Source: a virus. From it: 39,859 nucleotides of DNA. This document shows, piece after piece, positions 570-35,959 of this stretch. A program made the position numbers and the translations under genes. The notes beneath the pieces were generated by a model. It was given only the letters and a program-made list of their open reading frames with translations. It searched no databases and was not told the origin of the DNA. The first letter of the stretch is position 1, and the number at the start of each line of letters is the position of its first letter. The DNA lies in IMG/VR virus record IMGVR_UViG_3300025641_000019, positions 1 through 39,859 of that record; one strand, 5' to 3'.

Positions 570-877
570 TAGAAGAATCAGGAATAAAGATTGATTATTA
601 TCTTAAGTTAACTAACGAAGCATCTATGGCTACAGTACTCTCCGACTTTTATAATGAAGAAGGTGATTTAGTAACTAACACTGCAGACTACTCTATAGAC
701 GTTGTAGGTACTATATATGAACCTACTGGTGTAATCTTAACAAATGCAGAAGGATTAGATTATCCTGAGATGCAAGCTCTAACAGGTTGGCATTTAAATA
801 TTAGAACATACAATGATATGAGTGCATACGAAGAGTACTTTATGTCACCTACAACACCTTCAAGAAAGTGGTTATAA
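566..877 (+). CDS. Small protein downstream of tail fibre
   Basis: This 103-residue protein starts at the ATG overlapping the fibre stop (ATGA), with GAGGAG upstream at good spacing. It has a beta-rich composition and a conserved-looking C-terminus (SPTTPSRKWL) of the kind found on short proteins that follow fibre genes in marine podoviruses. The position suggests a fibre accessory, chaperone or small tail component. No catalytic motif, signal peptide or membrane segment is visible. Function is not recognised. Confidence 0.6.
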   Translation: MIEESGIKIDYYLKLTNEASMATVLSDFYNEEGDLVTNTADYSIDVVGTIYEPTGVILTNAEGLDYPEMQALTGWHLNIRTYNDMSAYEEYFMSPTTPSRKWL

Positions 878-1203
878 TGCCTAGTACTCCTGGATATAAA
901 AGAAATTACAAGAGAGAGCGTGCTCTTCAACTTAAATCACCTAAGTCTAACTTAGCAGCTAATGCTTCACGTAAGGCAGCTAGACGTATGTTAGAAAAAG
1001 GTGGACTAGTTAAGAAGGGAGATGGTAAAGATGTTGATCATAAGAACCGTAACCCTAATGATAACTCAGCAAAGAACCTAAGAGTACAGCCTAAAGGAAC
1101 TAATCGTAGCTTCTCTCGTAAGGCACAGGCTCACAAATATAACAAGGGTGGATATGTAGCATGCGGTGCTTCTAACCCTGGAACTCATAAGAGGAATAAG
1201 TAA
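877..1203 (+). CDS. HNH-like endonuclease domain protein with KGG C-terminal tail
   Basis: The ATG at 877 shares a base with the preceding TAA (TAATG) and is preferred over the in-frame GTG at 868. The 108-residue product is very basic. Its centre reads VDHKNRNPNDNSAKNLRVQ, which matches the HNH core pattern (DH, then N-x-x-DN, then NLR). HNH proteins next to terminase genes assist DNA cleavage at packaging in many phages; a homing-type nuclease is the alternative. The last 20 or so residues contain NKGGYVACGASNPGTHK, repeated exactly at the end of the protein encoded by 2359-2667. The HNH assignment is moderate because only the core motif is seen. Confidence 0.65.
   Translation: MPSTPGYKRNYKRERALQLKSPKSNLAANASRKAARRMLEKGGLVKKGDGKDVDHKNRNPNDNSAKNLRVQPKGTNRSFSRKAQAHKYNKGGYVACGASNPGTHKRNK
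1141..1191 (+). repeat. Copy 1 of 17-residue C-terminal tag NKGGYVACGASNPGTHK
   Basis: These 17 codons encode exactly the same peptide as 2605-2655, with nine synonymous third-position differences and no amino acid change. The peptide sits just before the stop in both proteins. Confidence 0.9.
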
Positions 1204-1517
1204 TGGATTTAAGTAAGTGTAAAGATGCATTGAAGAAGCTTGGTTATACTGTAACAGCAGATCAAGTAGTCAACAGCAGAGGTGACGTAATGGGCCAGTG
1301 TGACCCTTACGGTTCTTTCGACTCTCACGTTAAAGAGATAATGGATATTGTTTATCCTCCTAAGAAAGTTAAACCACATACTGATATGTCGAACCCTCCT
1401 AAGGTTGCTAAGAAAGAAACAAAGAAAATGAAACGTGCTAGAACAGAGAAGGGTCACTATATAGCAGACGACCCATCTACTCCAGACGTTAACGAAGCTT
1501 GGAAAGAAGTAAAGTAA
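1203..1517 (+). CDS. Small basic protein, unknown function
   Basis: The ATG overlaps the previous stop (TAATG). The N-terminal 55 residues form a compact, partly helical region with two Cys (C6, C33). The C-terminal half is Lys-rich and ends RARTEKGHYIADDPSTPDVNEAW, a tail style I recall from small proteins of marine T7-like and T4-like phages (two blocks: RARTEKGHYIADD and PSTPDVNEAW). It lies in a translationally coupled block feeding the packaging genes. Function is not recognised; a virion-associated or DNA-binding role is only inference from charge and position. Confidence 0.6.
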   Translation: MDLSKCKDALKKLGYTVTADQVVNSRGDVMGQCDPYGSFDSHVKEIMDIVYPPKKVKPHTDMSNPPKVAKKETKKMKRARTEKGHYIADDPSTPDVNEAWKEVK

Positions 1518-1882
1518 TGACAAAGAGAACCCTCACAGAGAAGCAAGAGTTATTCTTAGCTGTTCTATTTGAACAGGCAGAGGGAGACCCTTTGATGGCT
1601 AAGAAGCTAGCAGGATACTCAGACAACGTTTCAACTTCATCAATAACAGCTTCACTAGTAGACGAGATAGCAGAACTTACACGTAAGTTTATAGCTCAGT
1701 CTTCAACTAAGGCAGCATATACAATGTTCAAAGTAATGGGCGATGTAGATATGTTAGGTGCTAAAGAAAAGATGACTGCTGCTAAAGACATTATGGATAG
1801 AGCAGGATTTGTTAAAACAGAGAAGGTGGAAGTATCTACTGTAGAACCAGTATTCATTCTACCTGCTAAGAAAGAGGAATAG
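1517..1882 (+). CDS. Putative terminase small subunit-like protein
   Basis: The start is the ATG at 1517, which shares a base with the preceding TAA; an in-frame TTG at 1499 is less likely. The 121 residues show LTEKQELFLAVLFEQ near the N-terminus, then AKKLAGYS (helix-turn-helix-like), and end AKDIMDRAGFVKTEKVEV followed by FILPAK. That order (Q-x-x-F-L, GDP-x-x-A, AGYS, then ILDRAG-x-VK) matches small terminase proteins of marine podo- and myoviruses as I recall them. It would recognise the packaging site and regulate TerL. A second candidate for this role, the HTH protein at 3426, sits directly before TerL, so the assignment is provisional. Confidence 0.6.
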   Translation: MTKRTLTEKQELFLAVLFEQAEGDPLMAKKLAGYSDNVSTSSITASLVDEIAELTRKFIAQSSTKAAYTMFKVMGDVDMLGAKEKMTAAKDIMDRAGFVKTEKVEVSTVEPVFILPAKKEE

Positions 1883-1883
1883 T

Positions 1884-2174
1884 ATGCCAGTAAAGAAAGA
1901 CCCTAGATTAGCTAGAGCAGGTGTATCAGGTTTCAATAAACCTAAGCGTACTCCTAACCACCCTAAGAAGTCTCACGTAGTTGTTGCTAAGGTTGGTGAA
2001 CAAATTAAGACTATACGTTTTGGTGAGCAAGGTGCTAAGACTGCAGGTAAACCTAAAGCAGGTGAGTCTGATAAGATGAAGAAGAAAAGAGCATCATTTA
2101 AAGCTAGACATGGTAAGAACATTGCTAAAGGTAAGATGTCAGCAGCTTATTGGGCTGATAAGGCTAAGTGGTAA
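1884..2174 (+). CDS. Lys-rich small protein (FKARHGKN family type)
   Basis: This 96-residue, strongly basic protein follows the previous stop by one base. Its C-terminal motif SFKARHGKNIAKGKMSAAYWADKAKW is typical of a small protein recurring in marine phage genomes (shown here as SFKARHGKN and AAYWADKAKW). It has no Cys, membrane segment or catalytic motif. The composition suggests nucleic-acid or virion association. It is the first of three consecutive basic genes coupled to one another. Biochemical function is unknown. Confidence 0.6.
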   Translation: MPVKKDPRLARAGVSGFNKPKRTPNHPKKSHVVVAKVGEQIKTIRFGEQGAKTAGKPKAGESDKMKKKRASFKARHGKNIAKGKMSAAYWADKAKW

Positions 2175-2362
2175 TGGCTGCTAAGAAACCTAAAAGTAAA
2201 GTTAACGCATCTGGCAACTACACTAAACCTACAATGCGTAAGAGACTCTTTGCTAAGATCAAAGCAGGTACTAAAGGTGGTTCAGCAGGTCAATGGTCTG
2301 CTCGTAAGGCACAGATGTTAGCTAAACAATACAAAGCTGCAGGTGGAGGATACAAGAAATGA
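2174..2362 (+). CDS. Lys-rich small protein (GQWSARKAQ family type)
   Basis: The ATG at 2174 overlaps the previous TAA, preferred over the in-frame GTG at 2168. The 62-residue product contains GNYTKPTMRKRLF, then GGSAGQWSARKAQMLAKQY, and ends in AAGGGYKK. This pattern recurs in phages and large DNA viruses as a small conserved domain of unknown function. It is basic and probably binds nucleic acid or is packaged in the virion, which is inference from charge and from linkage to packaging genes. Confidence 0.65.
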   Translation: MAAKKPKSKVNASGNYTKPTMRKRLFAKIKAGTKGGSAGQWSARKAQMLAKQYKAAGGGYKK

Positions 2363-2667
2363 AGGGTCCTCAGAAGTCACTTAATAAATGGACTAAAGAG
2401 AAGTGGGGTACTAAATCAGGTAAAAACTCTACTCAAGGTTCTAAAGCTACTGGTGAAAGGTATCTACCTAAAGCAGCTAGAGAAGCTTTAACAGATAAAG
2501 AATATGCAGCAACATCTGCTGCTAAGCGTAAAGGTAAAGCGTCTGGTAAACAGTTCGTTAAACAACCAAAGAAAATAGCTGCAAAGACAGCTAAGTACAG
2601 GTTCAATAAAGGTGGTTACGTTGCATGTGGTGCATCTAATCCAGGAACTCATAAGAAAACTACTTGA
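2359..2667 (+). CDS. Lys-rich small protein (SLNKWTKEKW type) with KGG tail
   Basis: The start overlaps the preceding stop as ATGA. Residues 6-35 contain SLNKWTKEKWGTKSGK, followed by TGERYLPKAA and YAATSAAKRKGKASGKQFV, a recurring conserved pattern of small marine-phage proteins of unknown function. The C-terminus carries NKGGYVACGASNPGTHK, identical to the tail of the HNH-like protein encoded at 877-1203. The stop codon TGA lies inside the -35 element of the following promoter. Confidence 0.65.
   Translation: MKGPQKSLNKWTKEKWGTKSGKNSTQGSKATGERYLPKAAREALTDKEYAATSAAKRKGKASGKQFVKQPKKIAAKTAKYRFNKGGYVACGASNPGTHKKTT
2605..2655 (+). repeat. Copy 2 of 17-residue C-terminal tag NKGGYVACGASNPGTHK
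   Basis: This copy is identical in protein sequence to 1141-1191 but differs at nine third positions, so it is not a recent DNA duplication. Confidence 0.9.
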
Positions 2668-3425: not shown

Positions 3426-3866
3426 ATGGCTAGGAAACAAGCTCCAACATTAACTGCTATTCCCGTAGACCAAGCATGGAAGATTCCTAAGAGAGGTTTA
3501 GACGGAGAGTACTACCCAATAGTAAGAGTAGGTAGACATATTCCTTTTGGATATGAGCAAGATGAAGGTGATAAAGATATACTCCAACCAATCCCCGAAC
3601 AACTAGAAATGTTAGAGATGGCTAAGAAGTACTTGAAAGAGTACAGTCTCCGACTAGTAGCCAGATGGCTTACAGAACAATCGGGTAGATATATTTCACA
3701 TGTAGGATTAAACAAACGTGTCAGCATCGAAGAAAAACGAAGGTATACGGCCTCAGCCCATAGAGACTATGCAAGGCGCTACCAAGAAGCAAGTGAAAAA
3801 GCGAGAGTCATCGAAGAAGAAAGACTCGGTGGTAGAAGTACAAGAAAGCTCGATAGAGACGACTGA
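3426..3866 (+). CDS. HTH DNA-binding protein adjacent to TerL (possible terminase small subunit)
   Basis: This is a 146-residue basic protein. Residues 14-50 read AWKIPKRGLDGEYYPIVRVGRHIPFGYE in part, followed by PIPEQLEMLEMAKKYLKEYSLRLVARWL and a C-terminal helix, GLNKRV. The last two blocks look like the helix-turn-helix of recombinase-like proteins (L-x-x-A-K-x-YL ... S-x-R-x-VA-x-WL ... S-x-x-GL-x-KR). Proteins of this type sit immediately before the large terminase in marine phages. It may bind the packaging site or regulate transcription. Its 3' end overlaps the terminase frame by up to 149 nt. Confidence 0.65.
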   Translation: MARKQAPTLTAIPVDQAWKIPKRGLDGEYYPIVRVGRHIPFGYEQDEGDKDILQPIPEQLEMLEMAKKYLKEYSLRLVARWLTEQSGRYISHVGLNKRVSIEEKRRYTASAHRDYARRYQEASEKARVIEEERLGGRSTRKLDRDD

Positions 3867-5313
3867 ACCAACTCCTACCTACGCACAACCTAAACCAGAG
3901 CCTATTGATGTCAAGAAAGCACAAGACATTATCTTTGCTCCTAATCCTGGACCTCAGGAAGACTTCCTAGCTTCTAATGAGCAGGAAGTTTTATACGGTG
4001 GAGCAGCAGGTGGTGGTAAATCATATGCGATGGTTGCAGACCCAGTACGTTACTTTAACAATGGACAGTCTAGAGGATTGTTAGTTAGACGTAGTACAGA
4101 AGAATTAAGAGAACTTATCTCAGTATCTAAACAGTTATACCCAAGGGCTATTCCAGGTATTAAGTTTATGGAAAGAGATAAGACTTGGGTAGCTCCTAGT
4201 GGTGCTACTTTATGGATGTCATATCTTGATAGAGATGATGATGTTATGAGATACCAGGGACAGGCTTTTAACTGGATAGGACTCGATGAGCTTACACAGT
4301 GGCCTTCCCCTTTTGCTTGGAACTACATGAGATCACGTCTACGTGCTACTAGTGCTTCTAAGCTACCTCTTTATATGAGAGCAACAACAAACCCTGGTGG
4401 CCCAGGACACTTCTGGGTTAAGAAGACCTTCATAGACCCTGCTCCTGCTAATACATCTTTCAACGCTACTGATGAGCATGGTGAAGTAATCGAATGGCCT
4501 AAAGGACACTCAAGAGAAGGTGAGCCTTTATTTAAACGTAGGTTTATACCTGCTAACTTGTTTAACAATCCATACTTAGCAGAAGATGGAATGTATGAAG
4601 CAAACCTACTATCAATGCCAGAGCATCAACGTAGACAGTTGTTAGATGGTGATTGGAGTATATCAGAAGGTTCAGCCTTCAGTGAGTTTAGTGTTAAGAA
4701 GCATGTAATACCACCATATGATATACCAGATAGTTGGGCTAAGTTTAGAGCATGTGACTACGGTTACGGTTCGATGACAGCAGTATTATGGTTCGCTGTA
4801 GCTCCTGATGAACAGATAGTTATATACAGAGAGTTATATGTTAATAAGACTACTGCTTCTGATTTAGCAGATATGATTATAGAGATAGAAAAAGGTGAAC
4901 GTATAAGATACGGAGTACTCGATAGCTCTTTGTGGCACAATCGAGGAGACACAGGACCTAGCTTAGCAGAGCAAATGATTCAAAAGGGTTGTCGTTGGAG
5001 ACCATCAGATAGATCAAAAGGCTCACGTATAGCAGGTAAGAACGAAATACACAGACGACTTCAAGTAGATGAGTTTACAGAACAACCTAGAATAGTCTTC
5101 TTTAATACTTGCCGTAACATAATATCAGAATTACCCTCTCTTCCTCTTGATAAGAACAATCTAGAAGATGTAGATACTAAGAGTCCCATAGACCACGGTT
5201 ATGATGCTCTACGATACGGTCTAATGACTAGACCAAGATCATCACTTTGGGATTATGACCCTTCTACACAACGATCAGGCTTTCAGATGTCTGACCCCAC
5301 ATTTGGCTACTAA
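3718..5313 (+). CDS. terL: Terminase large subunit (ATPase/nuclease)
   Basis: This is the packaging motor protein. From the GTG at 3718, Walker A GAAGGGKS lies at residues 95-102 (K101) and Walker B WIGLDE has D190 and E191. The RNase H-fold nuclease carries D347 (RACDYGYG), D402 (GVLDSS) and D492/D496 (DHGYDALRYG). The start is uncertain: GTG 3718 has AGGA nine bases upstream and overlaps the HTH gene by 149 nt, while ATG 3769 overlaps by 98 nt but lacks a clear ribosome site. The Lys-rich N-terminal 90 residues before the ATPase are low complexity. It works with the portal encoded next. Confidence 0.95.
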   Translation: MSASKKNEGIRPQPIETMQGATKKQVKKRESSKKKDSVVEVQESSIETTEPTPTYAQPKPEPIDVKKAQDIIFAPNPGPQEDFLASNEQEVLYGGAAGGGKSYAMVADPVRYFNNGQSRGLLVRRSTEELRELISVSKQLYPRAIPGIKFMERDKTWVAPSGATLWMSYLDRDDDVMRYQGQAFNWIGLDELTQWPSPFAWNYMRSRLRATSASKLPLYMRATTNPGGPGHFWVKKTFIDPAPANTSFNATDEHGEVIEWPKGHSREGEPLFKRRFIPANLFNNPYLAEDGMYEANLLSMPEHQRRQLLDGDWSISEGSAFSEFSVKKHVIPPYDIPDSWAKFRACDYGYGSMTAVLWFAVAPDEQIVIYRELYVNKTTASDLADMIIEIEKGERIRYGVLDSSLWHNRGDTGPSLAEQMIQKGCRWRPSDRSKGSRIAGKNEIHRRLQVDEFTEQPRIVFFNTCRNIISELPSLPLDKNNLEDVDTKSPIDHGYDALRYGLMTRPRSSLWDYDPSTQRSGFQMSDPTFGY

Positions 5314-5323
5314 GGAATAAAAC

Positions 5324-7441
5324 ATGGATGAGTACGAAATGGACGAACAAGTAATGGAAACTATCATGGATGATGCAGAGTCTTCCTTTGTAGATGACAT
5401 AAATGAAGGCGATACAACAGATGAGCCAGTAGGTAAGGTAGTTTCATACGTTACTGAACGTTTTAAGAGAGCTGAGACAGCTAGATACACTGATGAAGAG
5501 CGTTGGGTTAAGTCTTACCGTAACTACAGAGGTATATATGGCCCTGATGTGCAGTTTACAAGCACTGAGAAGTCTAGAATCTTTGTTAAAGTTACTAAAA
5601 CTAAAGTATTAGCTGCATATGGTCAGTTAGTAGAGGTTTTATTCGGTAATAACAAGTTCCCTATCTCTATTGACCCTACTACATTACCAGAAGGCATAGC
5701 AGAATCTATGCATTTTGAGTCTAACCCAGATATGCAAGCAGCCAAGGCTGACAAAGCTCCTACAATTAGCCCTGAGGACGCTAAATTACGCCCAGGAGAG
5801 ACTATCCCAGACCTTATGGAACGATTAGGTGGAATGGCTGATGATTTAGCTCCAGTGGCTGATATTATGGAGGAAGGTGAAGGTAGAACTGCTACTGAAG
5901 TAACCGTACATCCTGCAATGGTAGCTGCTAAGAAGATGGAAAAGAAGATACATGACCAATTAGAAGAATCAGGTGCATCTAAGAAGCTTAGAACAGCTGC
6001 ATTTGAATGTGCTTTGTTTGGTACAGGTGTTATGAAGGGCCCTTTTGCTGTAGATAAAGAATATCCTAATTGGGATGACGAAGGTAACTATAAACCTCGT
6101 GTTAAAACAATGCCTCAGTGTGATGCTGTTTCAGTATGGAACTTCTACCCAGACCCAGACGCTAATTCAATGGATGAAGCTGAGTATGTAGTAGAACGTC
6201 ACAAGATGTCTAAGTCACAACTACGTGCACTTAAGAAACGTCCATTCTTCCGTAAGAACGCTGTTGATATGGCAATGGGTTATGGTCAGTCCTACACTAA
6301 AGAGTGGTGGGAACAGGCTATGGAAGACGATGCACAACAAACAGCTACAGAACGATATGAAGTACTTGAGTTCTGGGGTTATGTAGATACAGAAGTATTA
6401 GAAGACCATGATGTTGATATTCCATCAGAACTAAAAGATGTAGATCAGCTTAACTGTAACATCTGGATTTGTAATGGACAAGTAATCCGTCTAGTAATGA
6501 ATCCATTTAACCCACAGGTTATACCTTACTACGCAGTACCATACGAAGTAAACCCTTACTCTTTCTTTGGAGTTGGTCTAGCTGAGAACATGGATGATAC
6601 ACAATCTCTAATGAATGGCTTTATGAGAATGGCTGTAGACAATGCTGCTTTATCAGGTAACTTATTAATTGAAGTAGATGAGAACAACCTAACTCCAGGT
6701 CAGAACCTAGATATATACCCTGGAAAAGTCTTCCGTAGAAACGGTGGGGCTCCAGGTCAAGCCATCTTCGGTACTAAGTTCCCTAACGTATCTAATGAGA
6801 ACATGCAGATGTTTGATAAGGCTCGTCAGTTATCTGATGAATCAACTGGTCTACCTAGCTTTGCTCACGGTCAGACAGGTGTATCTGGTGTTGGACGTAC
6901 AGCGTCTGGTATCTCTATGCTTATGTCAGCAGCTAACGGCTCTGTAAGAACAGTTATCAAGAACGTAGACGACTATCTATTAGGTCCTTTAGGTAAATCA
7001 TTCTTCTCCTTTAACATGCAATTTGATTATGACCCAGAGATCAAGGGTGATCTAGAAGTTAAAGCACAAGGTACATCATCATTAATGGCTAACGAAGTTC
7101 GTAGTCAACGACTAATGCAGTTCTTACAAGTAGTACAGAACCCTGCTTTAGCACCATTTGCTAAGATGGATTATGTTATACGTGAGATTGCTGAGTCAAT
7201 GGACTTAGATGCTGATAAGGTTGCTAACAGTTTATCTGAAGCAGCAGTACAAGCTGAGATATTAAGAAAGTTCCAAGAAGCTAACCCACCAGAAGTAGAC
7301 CCTAATGCAGAAGCAGCAGCAATGCAAGCAGCTATGGGTGCTAGTGGAGGAGCTCCAGGAGCAGGTGCAATAGGTGTAGGTGGGGCTCCAGTCCCAGGTG
7401 AACAAGGTTTCTCAGGTAACACTGGCGAAACACCAATTTAA
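5324..7441 (+). CDS. Portal protein
   Basis: The 705-residue protein directly follows TerL with AAGGAATAA as ribosome site. It is an acidic, mostly helical protein of the size of podoviral portals of the SIO1/P22-like type, longer than T7 gp8 (about 536). Recognisable segments are an N-terminal ERWVKSYRNYRGIYG, a central SVWNFYPDPDA, FGVGLAENMDDTQSLMN and GRTASGISMLMSAANGSV, the last two being the usual portal core signatures. The C-terminus is Gly/Ala/Pro-rich (about residues 655-705). It forms the dodecameric vertex for packaging and tail attachment. Assignment rests on these motifs plus the order TerL-portal. Confidence 0.9.
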   Translation: MDEYEMDEQVMETIMDDAESSFVDDINEGDTTDEPVGKVVSYVTERFKRAETARYTDEERWVKSYRNYRGIYGPDVQFTSTEKSRIFVKVTKTKVLAAYGQLVEVLFGNNKFPISIDPTTLPEGIAESMHFESNPDMQAAKADKAPTISPEDAKLRPGETIPDLMERLGGMADDLAPVADIMEEGEGRTATEVTVHPAMVAAKKMEKKIHDQLEESGASKKLRTAAFECALFGTGVMKGPFAVDKEYPNWDDEGNYKPRVKTMPQCDAVSVWNFYPDPDANSMDEAEYVVERHKMSKSQLRALKKRPFFRKNAVDMAMGYGQSYTKEWWEQAMEDDAQQTATERYEVLEFWGYVDTEVLEDHDVDIPSELKDVDQLNCNIWICNGQVIRLVMNPFNPQVIPYYAVPYEVNPYSFFGVGLAENMDDTQSLMNGFMRMAVDNAALSGNLLIEVDENNLTPGQNLDIYPGKVFRRNGGAPGQAIFGTKFPNVSNENMQMFDKARQLSDESTGLPSFAHGQTGVSGVGRTASGISMLMSAANGSVRTVIKNVDDYLLGPLGKSFFSFNMQFDYDPEIKGDLEVKAQGTSSLMANEVRSQRLMQFLQVVQNPALAPFAKMDYVIREIAESMDLDADKVANSLSEAAVQAEILRKFQEANPPEVDPNAEAAAMQAAMGASGGAPGAGAIGVGGAPVPGEQGFSGNTGETPI

Positions 7442-11283: not shown

Positions 11284-12882
11284 ATGATGAAGAGTAAAAA
11301 CAATAAGCTCTACGAAGAAGGTGGCTTAGCTACTGACGGTGTAGACGTAGACCCAGTGTCAGGTAATGATGTACCTCCTGGCTCTAACGCAGAAGATGTA
11401 AGGGATGATATCCCTGCACAGCTATCGTCTGGTGAGTACGTTGTACCTGCTGACGTAGTGAAGTACTTTGGTGTAGCTCACTTTGAGAAACTAAGAGCTA
11501 AAGCTAAAGACGGATTAGAAGGCATGGAAGAGGATGGACGTATGGGTGGAGAGCCTGTAGAAGAAGCTCCTGTAGGTGTGTCAGATGAAGATTTAATGAA
11601 CCTAGATGGTTATGCAACAGGTGGAATGGTAATGAAAGACTCAGATGTAAATAGCATTATAGATCGTGTAAAGGCAGCTGCAAAGTCTGACCCTTCCGTA
11701 TCTAATTTATTAAAAGCAAAAGGTATCTACATGCAAGATGACAGTGTAGGTCCAGAAGTAAAAGGACAAGCAGGTCCTCGTAAGTTTAACGAAGGTGGCA
11801 CTGCTGATAGCCCACTAACAGGTGAGTTTGACCCTGCAGGTACAACAGGTAACTACAACCCTTACACGTACACCCCAGGATTCTCTGTAGAATCAGGTAG
11901 TACAGGTTCAGCTCCTACAGTTCCTGGAACTCCTGTAGCTCCTGGTGTGGAGTCTCCTACAAAGCCTGTAACTTGTCCTCCAGGTTATATTTATGATGCA
12001 TCTTCTAACTCTTGTATTGTAGACCCTAATGCTCCTGTTGATAACAGAGATGGCGGTAATAACGTACAAGCAGACCCAGAAGCTTGGATGAAGAAGTATG
12101 ACTACACAGACCCTGCTGTACTTCTGGAACAATCATTAGATACACTCAACATGGGTGAAACAGATGAAGAAAAAGGTTTCTTAGAGAAAGCTGCAGGTGC
12201 AGTATCTGGATTCTTTGATAACGGTATCTTTGGTAAGATATTCAAGACACAGAAACATGCTGAAGTATTAGCTAACGCGGCTGTACTAGAATCACATGGT
12301 TACACAGATCAAGCTACTAAGTTACGTGAAGCGGCAGGTGGATACGCTGAGTCTAACAAGTTAAAGTTAGGTGGGTTCTTTGACTCAACTACATCTCTAA
12401 CTAAGATGGCTATGGGTCAGTATGGTCAGACTGAGATGATGAAAGGCAACTACATGCCTTCTAACAAGACTAAGAAAGCTGATGAAGGAACTTCTTCTAG
12501 TCCTTTCCTTAAGTCATCTGGTAAGAAATACCAAGATGCAGGTTTAGGTCTAGCACGTAAAATGAAAGACTACAGCCCTAGAACTAAAGCTGCTATCCAA
12601 ACTAAGATAGATAAAGGTGAGGATAGAGGGACATCTTGGAAAGGTGGTAAAGTAGCCACTAACCAAGCTAAACCAGGTAAGACTACTTCTAAGAATACAT
12701 CTGGACCTGCAGGTCAAGGTATGCCTTCAGCTTCTAAACCTAAGTCTGTAGCTCAGCGTAAAGCATCTGCAGCTAAGAAGTATGGTGGTTTAGCTAAAGG
12801 CGGAAGAGCTACTGGTGGACTAGTAGACAAAAAGACTAAACTAAAGAAGAAAGGTTTAGCTTCTAAACCAACTGATAAATAA
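11284..12882 (+). CDS. Virion-associated protein with KGG-type repeats
   Basis: This 532-residue protein has three parts. The N-terminal 100 residues include LSSGEYVVPADVVKYFGVAHFEKLR, a conserved segment in marine phages (recognised as SGEYVVPADVV and YFGVAHFEKLR). The middle is Gly/Pro/Thr-rich with a short Cys loop (CPPGYIYDASSNSC). The C-terminal 120 residues are Lys-rich and end in AKKYGGLAKGGRATGGLV. 'GG' punctuation recurs along the length (YEEGGLATDG, ATGGMVMKD, FNEGGTADS). It lies between portal and scaffold, so a head or internal protein is likely. No enzymatic motif is seen. Confidence 0.65.
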   Translation: MMKSKNNKLYEEGGLATDGVDVDPVSGNDVPPGSNAEDVRDDIPAQLSSGEYVVPADVVKYFGVAHFEKLRAKAKDGLEGMEEDGRMGGEPVEEAPVGVSDEDLMNLDGYATGGMVMKDSDVNSIIDRVKAAAKSDPSVSNLLKAKGIYMQDDSVGPEVKGQAGPRKFNEGGTADSPLTGEFDPAGTTGNYNPYTYTPGFSVESGSTGSAPTVPGTPVAPGVESPTKPVTCPPGYIYDASSNSCIVDPNAPVDNRDGGNNVQADPEAWMKKYDYTDPAVLLEQSLDTLNMGETDEEKGFLEKAAGAVSGFFDNGIFGKIFKTQKHAEVLANAAVLESHGYTDQATKLREAAGGYAESNKLKLGGFFDSTTSLTKMAMGQYGQTEMMKGNYMPSNKTKKADEGTSSSPFLKSSGKKYQDAGLGLARKMKDYSPRTKAAIQTKIDKGEDRGTSWKGGKVATNQAKPGKTTSKNTSGPAGQGMPSASKPKSVAQRKASAAKKYGGLAKGGRATGGLVDKKTKLKKKGLASKPTDK

Positions 12883-31518: not shown

Positions 31519-32139
31519 CTAATATGTATTAACTATCTCATCTACAATACCATGTTTGATGCACTCTTCTGGAGTTAACCATTCATCAGTAGGATGTAAA
31601 AGATGTTTGCGTATATACTTCTCAGACTTCTTAGTACATTTCTTATAGTGATTGACCATACGATCTCCTGCTAGGTCAAACTCTTTAATCATTGCGTGTA
31701 GTTCATGTTCTTTACCTTTAGAACCCCAAGCATATTGATGTGACATAACAGACGTGTTGTGGGTTAGTAGTCGTCTATCTCCTGCCATTATAGTTAGTAC
31801 GCCGCATGAAGCTACTAGACCTTTACCTATTGTTACTATAGGTATCTCTGACATCTTCATAGCATCAATAAGGTGGAAGGCTGAGTGTACTGAACCTCCA
31901 GGACTATTGATAACTAATGTAATCTGATCTGGTCTAACATCTTCTGGCATTAAGTTGTATTCGTATATAGCAGCTACTAGAGGCATGATCTTCTCTTGAT
32001 CAAACTTATCTACTAACATTAACATACCGTGTTCCCTCAGGTATGAACCTGGAGGCAGCATAGTAGTCTCTGGTTTATCTTCAGCAACTATCTTAGTTGT
32101 TTCTTTGATAGTCTTCTTTGCCATTTCCATTATAGTCAT
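31519..32139 (-). CDS. ClpP-family serine protease, cytoplasmic
   Basis: The ATG at 32139 overlaps the preceding TAA and has AAGGAGG at ideal spacing; ATG 32145 is too close to it. The 206-residue product has the ClpP/crotonase fold signatures: INSPGGSVHSAFHLIDAM (78-95) for the oxyanion region, candidate nucleophile S111 in GLVASCGVLTIMAG and H134 in SVMSHQYAWG. The C-terminal handle has KKSEKYIRKHL and TPEECIKHGIVDEI. The ClpP catalytic Asp position (usually in 'I-x-R-D') reads IRKH, so the third triad residue is unclear. It probably degrades or processes proteins, perhaps with a host Clp ATPase. It is encoded in tandem with an exported paralogue-like protein. Confidence 0.85.
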   Translation of the reverse strand: MTIMEMAKKTIKETTKIVAEDKPETTMLPPGSYLREHGMLMLVDKFDQEKIMPLVAAIYEYNLMPEDVRPDQITLVINSPGGSVHSAFHLIDAMKMSEIPIVTIGKGLVASCGVLTIMAGDRRLLTHNTSVMSHQYAWGSKGKEHELHAMIKEFDLAGDRMVNHYKKCTKKSEKYIRKHLLHPTDEWLTPEECIKHGIVDEIVNTY

Positions 32140-32783
32140 TACCATCCTCCTTGTAAAAGTCTTAGTCTTAATGGGCTGTATATTCTATCTGCTACAAAGT
32201 TCTTAGGTAGGTCAATGAACTTACCGAAGTCATTGTCTTTCATTTCAAATAGTGTTAAGTCTTTCTGACTAAGTATTAAGAAGTCATCTTTACTAGTCAT
32301 CTGTGAGATAAGTAAACCTAGTTGTCCTGTGTATCCCATCTTGAAGTGATAGATACTTTCTATAGTACCGAACATCTGACCTATCTTCATACCGTGGTTG
32401 TAGTCTTTACTGTTTTGCTTTGTCCAAGCTACATGAAACCCCATGATACCGTAGTTAAACTTGTACTTACCGCCTAGGAAGGCAACAGCACAAGCACTGA
32501 GACACGAATCTCCTCTGCGTATAACTGTTGACATCTTGTTCTTGTTGATGGTGTAACCTAAGTTATAACCTTCAAGAGCTGAACCCCCTGGACTATTAAG
32601 ACGCAGAGACTTGATACCTGTTCTATCTATAACTCTCTGTAGATTCTTGTAGTCTCCATCCATTAACCTACCCTCTATCTTTATCTGAGAAGAGGTATAG
32701 GTGATGTTAGCTGAGTGAGCAGTCATTGGAACACTAATAGCTAAAGCTAGTGCTACAAATATTACTGTTACTACATATTTCAT
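32139..32783 (-). CDS. Exported ClpP-like serine protease (periplasmic type)
   Basis: The ATG overlaps the upstream stop as ATGA. Residues 1-25 are a clear Sec signal peptide (Lys2, a hydrophobic core FVALALAISV, cleavage near TAHSA). The mature part has RLNSPGGSALEGYNLG (61-76), candidate nucleophile S96 in GDSCLSACAVAFLGG and H117 in IMGFHVAW, the pattern of bacterial periplasmic ClpP-like proteins (COG3904 type). The two Cys flanking Ser96 (C94, C98) are typical of that group. It acts in the periplasm if exported. Such an enzyme in a lytic phage replication arm is unusual; the substrate is unknown. Confidence 0.8.
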   Translation of the reverse strand: MKYVVTVIFVALALAISVPMTAHSANITYTSSQIKIEGRLMDGDYKNLQRVIDRTGIKSLRLNSPGGSALEGYNLGYTINKNKMSTVIRRGDSCLSACAVAFLGGKYKFNYGIMGFHVAWTKQNSKDYNHGMKIGQMFGTIESIYHFKMGYTGQLGLLISQMTSKDDFLILSQKDLTLFEMKDNDFGKFIDLPKNFVADRIYSPLRLRLLQGGW

Positions 32784-35698: not shown

Positions 35699-35959
35699 TC
35701 ACTTATCACCATTAGCTTCGTGACCCTCACCTCTTACTTTAAAGTCTTCTCTCATCCAGACTAAATTGTCAATGTCACCGCGAGTTAACCCAATGTCATT
35801 TAGTTCTCTGTTAGACAAACGGTTGAGATGCTTGATTGTATCTCTGTGCATTTGCCATGTTTGTAAGTAGTTATAAAATCTATATAACCAAACAAAAGGT
35901 GATCGTATACCATTGCATACAATACGTCTTGCTTTACTATCTAATATTCTTTTAATCAT
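35699..35959 (-). CDS. DUF1127 domain protein (YjiS-like)
   Basis: This 86-residue basic protein starts at ATG 35959, overlapping the MazG stop (ATGA). Residues 44-66 read HLNRLSNRELNDIGLTRGDI, the DUF1127 signature (L-x-x-LS-x-R-x-L-x-DIGL-x-R-x-DI). An amphipathic Arg/Trp/Tyr-rich helix precedes it. DUF1127 proteins are common in alpha- and gammaproteobacteria; some bind RNA and affect phosphate, carbon or small-RNA control. A phage copy would probably modify host gene expression. It supports a proteobacterial host. Confidence 0.82.
   Translation of the reverse strand: MIKRILDSKARRIVCNGIRSPFVWLYRFYNYLQTWQMHRDTIKHLNRLSNRELNDIGLTRGDIDNLVWMREDFKVRGEGHEANGDK

Follow-up and report, generated by a model that had tools for sequence, protein, structure and literature searches.

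The window, i.e., the whole 39,859-nt stretch of viral DNA that was analysed (IMG/VR record IMGVR_UViG_3300025641_000019), encodes two small basic proteins that flank the terminase small subunit (TerS) gene and lie upstream of the genes for the terminase large subunit (TerL) and the portal (Table 1). Each protein ends in the same 17 residues, NKGGYVACGASNPGTHK, followed by three more residues and a stop codon. The first-pass annotation had reported this identical C-terminal tail and had counted nine third-position differences between the two DNA copies with no amino acid change, and both statements proved exact. Its further claim, that the bodies of the two proteins are unrelated, was borne out as well. 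The first body belongs to phrog_4590 and to Pfam HNH_3 (E = 4.7e-6; 26.6 bits against a cut-off of 24.8) and carries the HNH motif DGKDVDHKNRNPNDNSAKNL, whereas the second is matched by phrog_14910, whose profile covers residues 1-81 only. When the two proteins were compared by BLAST, the tail aligned, and a weak alignment with gaps continued from it into lysine-rich sequence. A degenerate pattern of the tail matched the window twice, as against no matches in 100 shuffles. AlphaFold models gave body block means of up to pLDDT 88 for the HNH protein and a body of about pLDDT 90 for the phrog_14910 protein, while the tail segments (residues 91-108 and 85-102, respectively) fell below 50; the tail is predicted to be intrinsically disordered in both window proteins. 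Foldseek found no match for the phrog_14910 product, and sequence searches of the PDB returned nothing useful.

Table 1. Coordinates of the tagged genes, their tails and other features of the window.
Feature	Coordinates	Strand	Basis
Tagged gene 1: small basic HNH protein, 108 aa, pI 11.0	877..1203	+	Pfam HNH_3, phrog_4590
Tail copy 1: NKGGYVACGASNPGTHK, then RNK-stop	1141..1191	+	Translation, pattern scan
Terminase small subunit (TerS), between tagged genes	1517..1882	+	phrog_2538, E 2.8e-6
Untagged companion phrog_7595, small basic, conserved in module	1884..2174	+	E 6.3e-42
Untagged companion phrog_17747, small basic, ends AAGGGYKK	2174..2362	+	E 2.2e-35
Tagged gene 2: small basic protein, 102 aa, pI 10.4	2359..2667	+	phrog_14910, E 1e-31
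Tail copy 2: NKGGYVACGASNPGTHK, then KTT-stop	2605..2655	+	Translation, pattern scan
Terminase large subunit (TerL), downstream of tagged genes	3718..5313	+	
Portal protein	5324..7441	+	phrog_332 / phrog_1216
Large protein between portal and scaffold	11284..12882		
ClpP/SppA-like serine protease	31519..32145	-	Head maturation protease PHROGs
ClpP/SppA-like serine protease	32139..32783	-	By eye
Product resembling DUF1127 (YjiS-like)	35699..35959	-	By eye

Approximately 24% of random single changes in the tail stretch are synonymous, and the chance of nine in nine being so is roughly 3e-6, or less than 1e-4 if transition bias is allowed for generously. Since only about a quarter would be expected at random, the observed pattern would hardly arise unless the peptide were under selection, in agreement with the earlier proposal that selection holds it constant. 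Other within-genome pairs of tails gave a concordant picture, with nine synonymous and two changed codons at locus L361 and seven synonymous codons at locus L067. Among 125 copies of KGGYxxCGAS, two of the glycines and the alanine each drew on all four of their codons, serine was encoded in several ways and the two tyrosine codons were about equally frequent. Because that scan fixed the amino acids, the codon spread shows only that the DNA is free to vary, and it is the within-genome pairs that demonstrate retention of the peptide. A function of the tail at the DNA level (e.g., a pac/cos or recombination site) was rejected, as third positions vary freely.

DNA-level scans of 2.9 million viral contigs, made without regard to position, found KGGYVACGA in 20 stretches and the looser KGGYxxCGA[S] in at least 120. 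Among the matches listed from the first scan, in-frame motifs of the latter type had the K of KGG 13-61 residues before the stop codon, and one further motif was interrupted by the contig end. A scan with GASNPxTQK gave 68 stretches, and all 53 in-frame cases in newly fetched loci lay near the C-terminus. The core of the tag is [C/V/I/L]GAS[N/M/V][P/K]xTQ[K/R], usually with KGG[Y/M] before it; cysteine was rejected as an essential residue, since V, I, L, A, or M takes its place in 28 of 190 tails. The first-pass annotation had proposed a search of viral metagenomes for the peptide at protein C-termini and a tabulation of the bodies that carry it, and the scans placed it C-terminally on about 30 BLAST clusters of bodies among the matches listed (directly or after trimming of repeats), a count drawn from contigs that are fragments, with gene starts set by simple rules and a clustering that may split distant relatives. 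These bodies include HNH, LysM, and phrog_14910 proteins, most match nothing, and all of the listed cluster representatives have a pI of 9.7-12. Four loci (L071, L108, L115, and L110) encode a LysM domain and then the tag in one protein, which suggests a peptidoglycan-binding cargo. At five others (L339, L342, L343, L348, and L353), ORFs of ~50-70 codons consist of nearly nothing other than the tag core and GGMAKK repeats, e.g., KCGASNPATQKSTPKMMMGGMAMKKK; the tag can thus be nearly a whole gene.

The same pattern occurred in 39 stretches of 84,980 bacterial and archaeal species genomes, in other contexts and at a chance-like level, and a bacterial origin of the tag was rejected on that ground. 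Among the matches of 99 tagged proteins, no Pfam, PHROG, or NCBIfam family lay over the tail, the Pfam KGG repeat included, and bodies such as HNH and LysM were matched instead. A tblastn search of phage records with the bare tail (24 and 36 aa) returned no real relative, such a query being too short, and a concatenated-query search was dominated by LysM matches and was rerun without LysM. A search for the motif strings, in which coverage of the literature was incomplete, found no paper.

Searches with the bodies only, which are blind to the tail, were sampled as the best 80 of at least 600 relatives. In this sampling, 88 of 106 phrog_14910 relatives ended within 12 residues of the core, without the tail, and 13 of the 106 carried it. 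Similarly sampled, HNH relatives lacked the tail in 57 of 88 cases and had the KGGYxxCGAS form in 11, while about 11 more had a cysteine-less tail such as KKYGKNIGASNPPTQRKYKK, exposing the core that persists. Tail state changed at least seven times on the phrog_14910 tree and at least three times on the HNH tree, both built from short sequences by a fast method. The old duplication or transfer first suggested for the window was therefore an understatement, as the element recurs across a whole phage clade and has been gained and lost repeatedly within one gene block. The tail is not part of a longer shared domain, and it stands at the C-terminus in every relative found. That it is a real, portable C-terminal tag at the level of the peptide is well supported.

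The two pattern scans yielded 184 loci among the matches listed. A TerS homologue was present in 163 of them, in every case on the strand of the tag, and in all 131 loci with a TerL homologue the latter was on the same strand and downstream of the tagged gene, with median tag-to-TerL distances of 2.8 and 2.2 kb. The companions phrog_7595 and phrog_17747 were found in 132 and 114 of the 184 loci, respectively. In 25 whole records of up to 58 kb, the looser motif occurred one to two times per tagged genome and a reversed control never. The tag lay 0.4-5.5 kb upstream of TerL in whole records having both, with the exception of one in which tag and TerL were at opposite ends (8.6 kb apart if the record is circular). 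The TerL of the window is 65% identical to that of HMO-2011, and the TerLs of tagged records are 63-96% identical to that of the window, with one truncated match at 56%. Taken with the position of the tag near TerL, these identities tie it to a single terminase clade and a single gene block, the small-gene block of HMO-2011-type phages and their relatives. Cultured roseophages carry it (CRP-1 gp65, CRP-345 gp75, and CRP-13 gp65, the last of these on a phrog_14910 body), and CRP-603 has a divergent HGGLACGADNPP end. Since HMO-2011 itself and CRP-9 have no tag of this form, the tag is not essential to the clade.

Several other genes of the window are of note in their own right. Besides its own family, the phrog_7595 protein matches a portion of a PHROG whose annotation reads "minor head protein and DNA pilot." The large protein encoded between portal and scaffold, which has homologues in 64 of 237 tagged loci, is possibly, as judged from sequence, an internal virion protein. 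The first-pass annotation had this product ending in related KGG/YGG elements; GG/K-rich repeats (KYGGLAKGGRATGGLV...) are indeed there, but they have no CGAS core and are not the same tag. Likewise, the KGG/GGM repeat ends of marine phage proteins, e.g., this product and HMO-2011 small proteins, are Gly/Lys-rich C-termini, some of them in the same module, but are without the GAS...TQ core, unlike the tag. The two serine protease genes are adjacent to each other and far from the head genes, and the product that resembles DUF1127 has a counterpart in CRP-603 gp69, which is annotated as DUF1127.

Tails borne on unrelated bodies resembled one another more within a locus (mean score 64.5) than between loci (48.6), a value as high being reached in none of 500 randomisations, where the 20 within-locus pairs include several from closely related genomes that are not independent. 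Tail similarity also rose with relatedness of TerS, TerL, and portal, about equally for each (r of about 0.3, common loci), which indicates that the tail goes with the phage and not with the body. TerS at first seemed to co-vary with the tail more than other genes did, but this hint was gone once the same loci were compared and, since all three genes were tracked equally, no single partner is singled out.

The early suggestion of a sorting, packaging, or protein-interaction tag is supported by the C-terminal position, the many bodies, the optional occurrence, the free synonymous sites, and the predicted disorder. An element that is short, disordered, swapped among bodies, kept in sequence, genome-shaped, and confined to the assembly/packaging block has the look of a docking label. 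We judge it only a little short of an even chance that the tail serves as a portable docking peptide which, in one clade of marine phages, would direct a variable set of small basic accessory proteins to the particle under assembly. The tail would bind one common partner, a component of the procapsid, the portal, or the packaging machinery, and the tagged proteins would most likely be loaded into the procapsid and travel with the DNA, encapsidation being the outcome that we infer.

Virion loading is favored because of these docking-label traits and because of two precedents. The internal proteins of phage T4, diverse as they are, have nothing in common but a capsid-targeting sequence (CTS; PMC3012670). 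As with the CTS, the tag is one short sequence common to otherwise diverse, here unrelated and basic, small phage proteins, i.e., a conserved label on variable cargo. The CTS of T4-type phages, however, is N-terminal and is removed by the head protease, whereas the tag of these HMO-2011-type phages is always C-terminal, has an unrelated sequence and has no known cleavage. Encapsulin cargo peptides are short, usually C-terminal and dock cargo inside an HK97-fold shell (PMC10960027, PMC8346489). The tag shares their shortness and their usual C-terminal location. In contrast, encapsulins are bacterial nanocompartments that usually have one cargo type, and the tag has a core, GAS[NMV][PK]xTQ, that differs by inspection from the encapsulin-type consensus. 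By membership, then, the tag falls outside both the T4 CTS and the encapsulin peptides; by analogy, it may work like them.

Counting against virion loading, the terminase linkage would also fit an adaptor of the packaging motor, in which the tail would bind TerS/TerL or the portal on its outer side, recruiting nucleases and DNA-binding proteins to the motor with no entry into the head. This is the main rival because the HNH protein gp74 of HK97 acts with terminase in cos cleavage (PMC9410871), and tagged gene 1 is similarly an HNH gene beside terminase; moreover, linkage to TerS/TerL is invariable and the tail tracks both. However, the parallel covers a single body out of about 30, gp74 is not known to carry the tail, LysM (peptidoglycan-binding) and many non-nuclease bodies do carry it, and the correlation with portal is just as good, so that we regard the adaptor as unlikely, if by no means negligible. 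A further step down in probability is a nucleic-acid-binding or condensate tail resembling RGG/KGG boxes, whose Gly/Lys/Tyr-rich end would stick to DNA or RNA and not to any particular protein. The Lys/Gly/Tyr richness, nearby GGM/KGG repeats, basic bodies, and predicted disorder would suit it, but what persists upon loss of KGGY is the uncharged GAS[N/M/V]PxTQ core and not K/R or GG, and simple charge-rich tails do not need a fixed sequence. Hitchhiking, in which a functionless, recombination-prone 3' end is copied onto neighboring small genes at GG-rich repeats, might account for the single gene block, the repeat-rich ends, and the repeated gain and loss; it is very improbable, since within-genome copies (nine of nine in the window, L361, and L067) keep the peptide despite many synonymous changes and hence are neither recent nor freely drifting. 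Least probable of all is a proteolysis or processing signal (a degron or protease site), as the tail, although short, C-terminal, and predicted to be disordered in a window that encodes two ClpP/SppA-like serine proteases, ends mostly in charged Lys/Arg, which ssrA-type ends do not resemble, and is carried by packaging-block proteins and not by regulators.

Roles have yet to be assigned to most ocean phage genes, and the tag allows dozens of unrelated small proteins to be grouped from their sequences. It predicts a common destination for its carriers, which is directly testable in cultured roseophages. If the tail is a virion-loading tag, as we prefer, it would list the cargo of these phages and could also offer a means of putting proteins of choice into phage heads. 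A bolder version, to which we give rather less credence and against which the balance leans, is an open cargo system, in which one docking site would load some thirty swappable, unrelated proteins into marine phage particles. If that were true, uncharacterised genes beside terminase would become predictable as delivered cargo.
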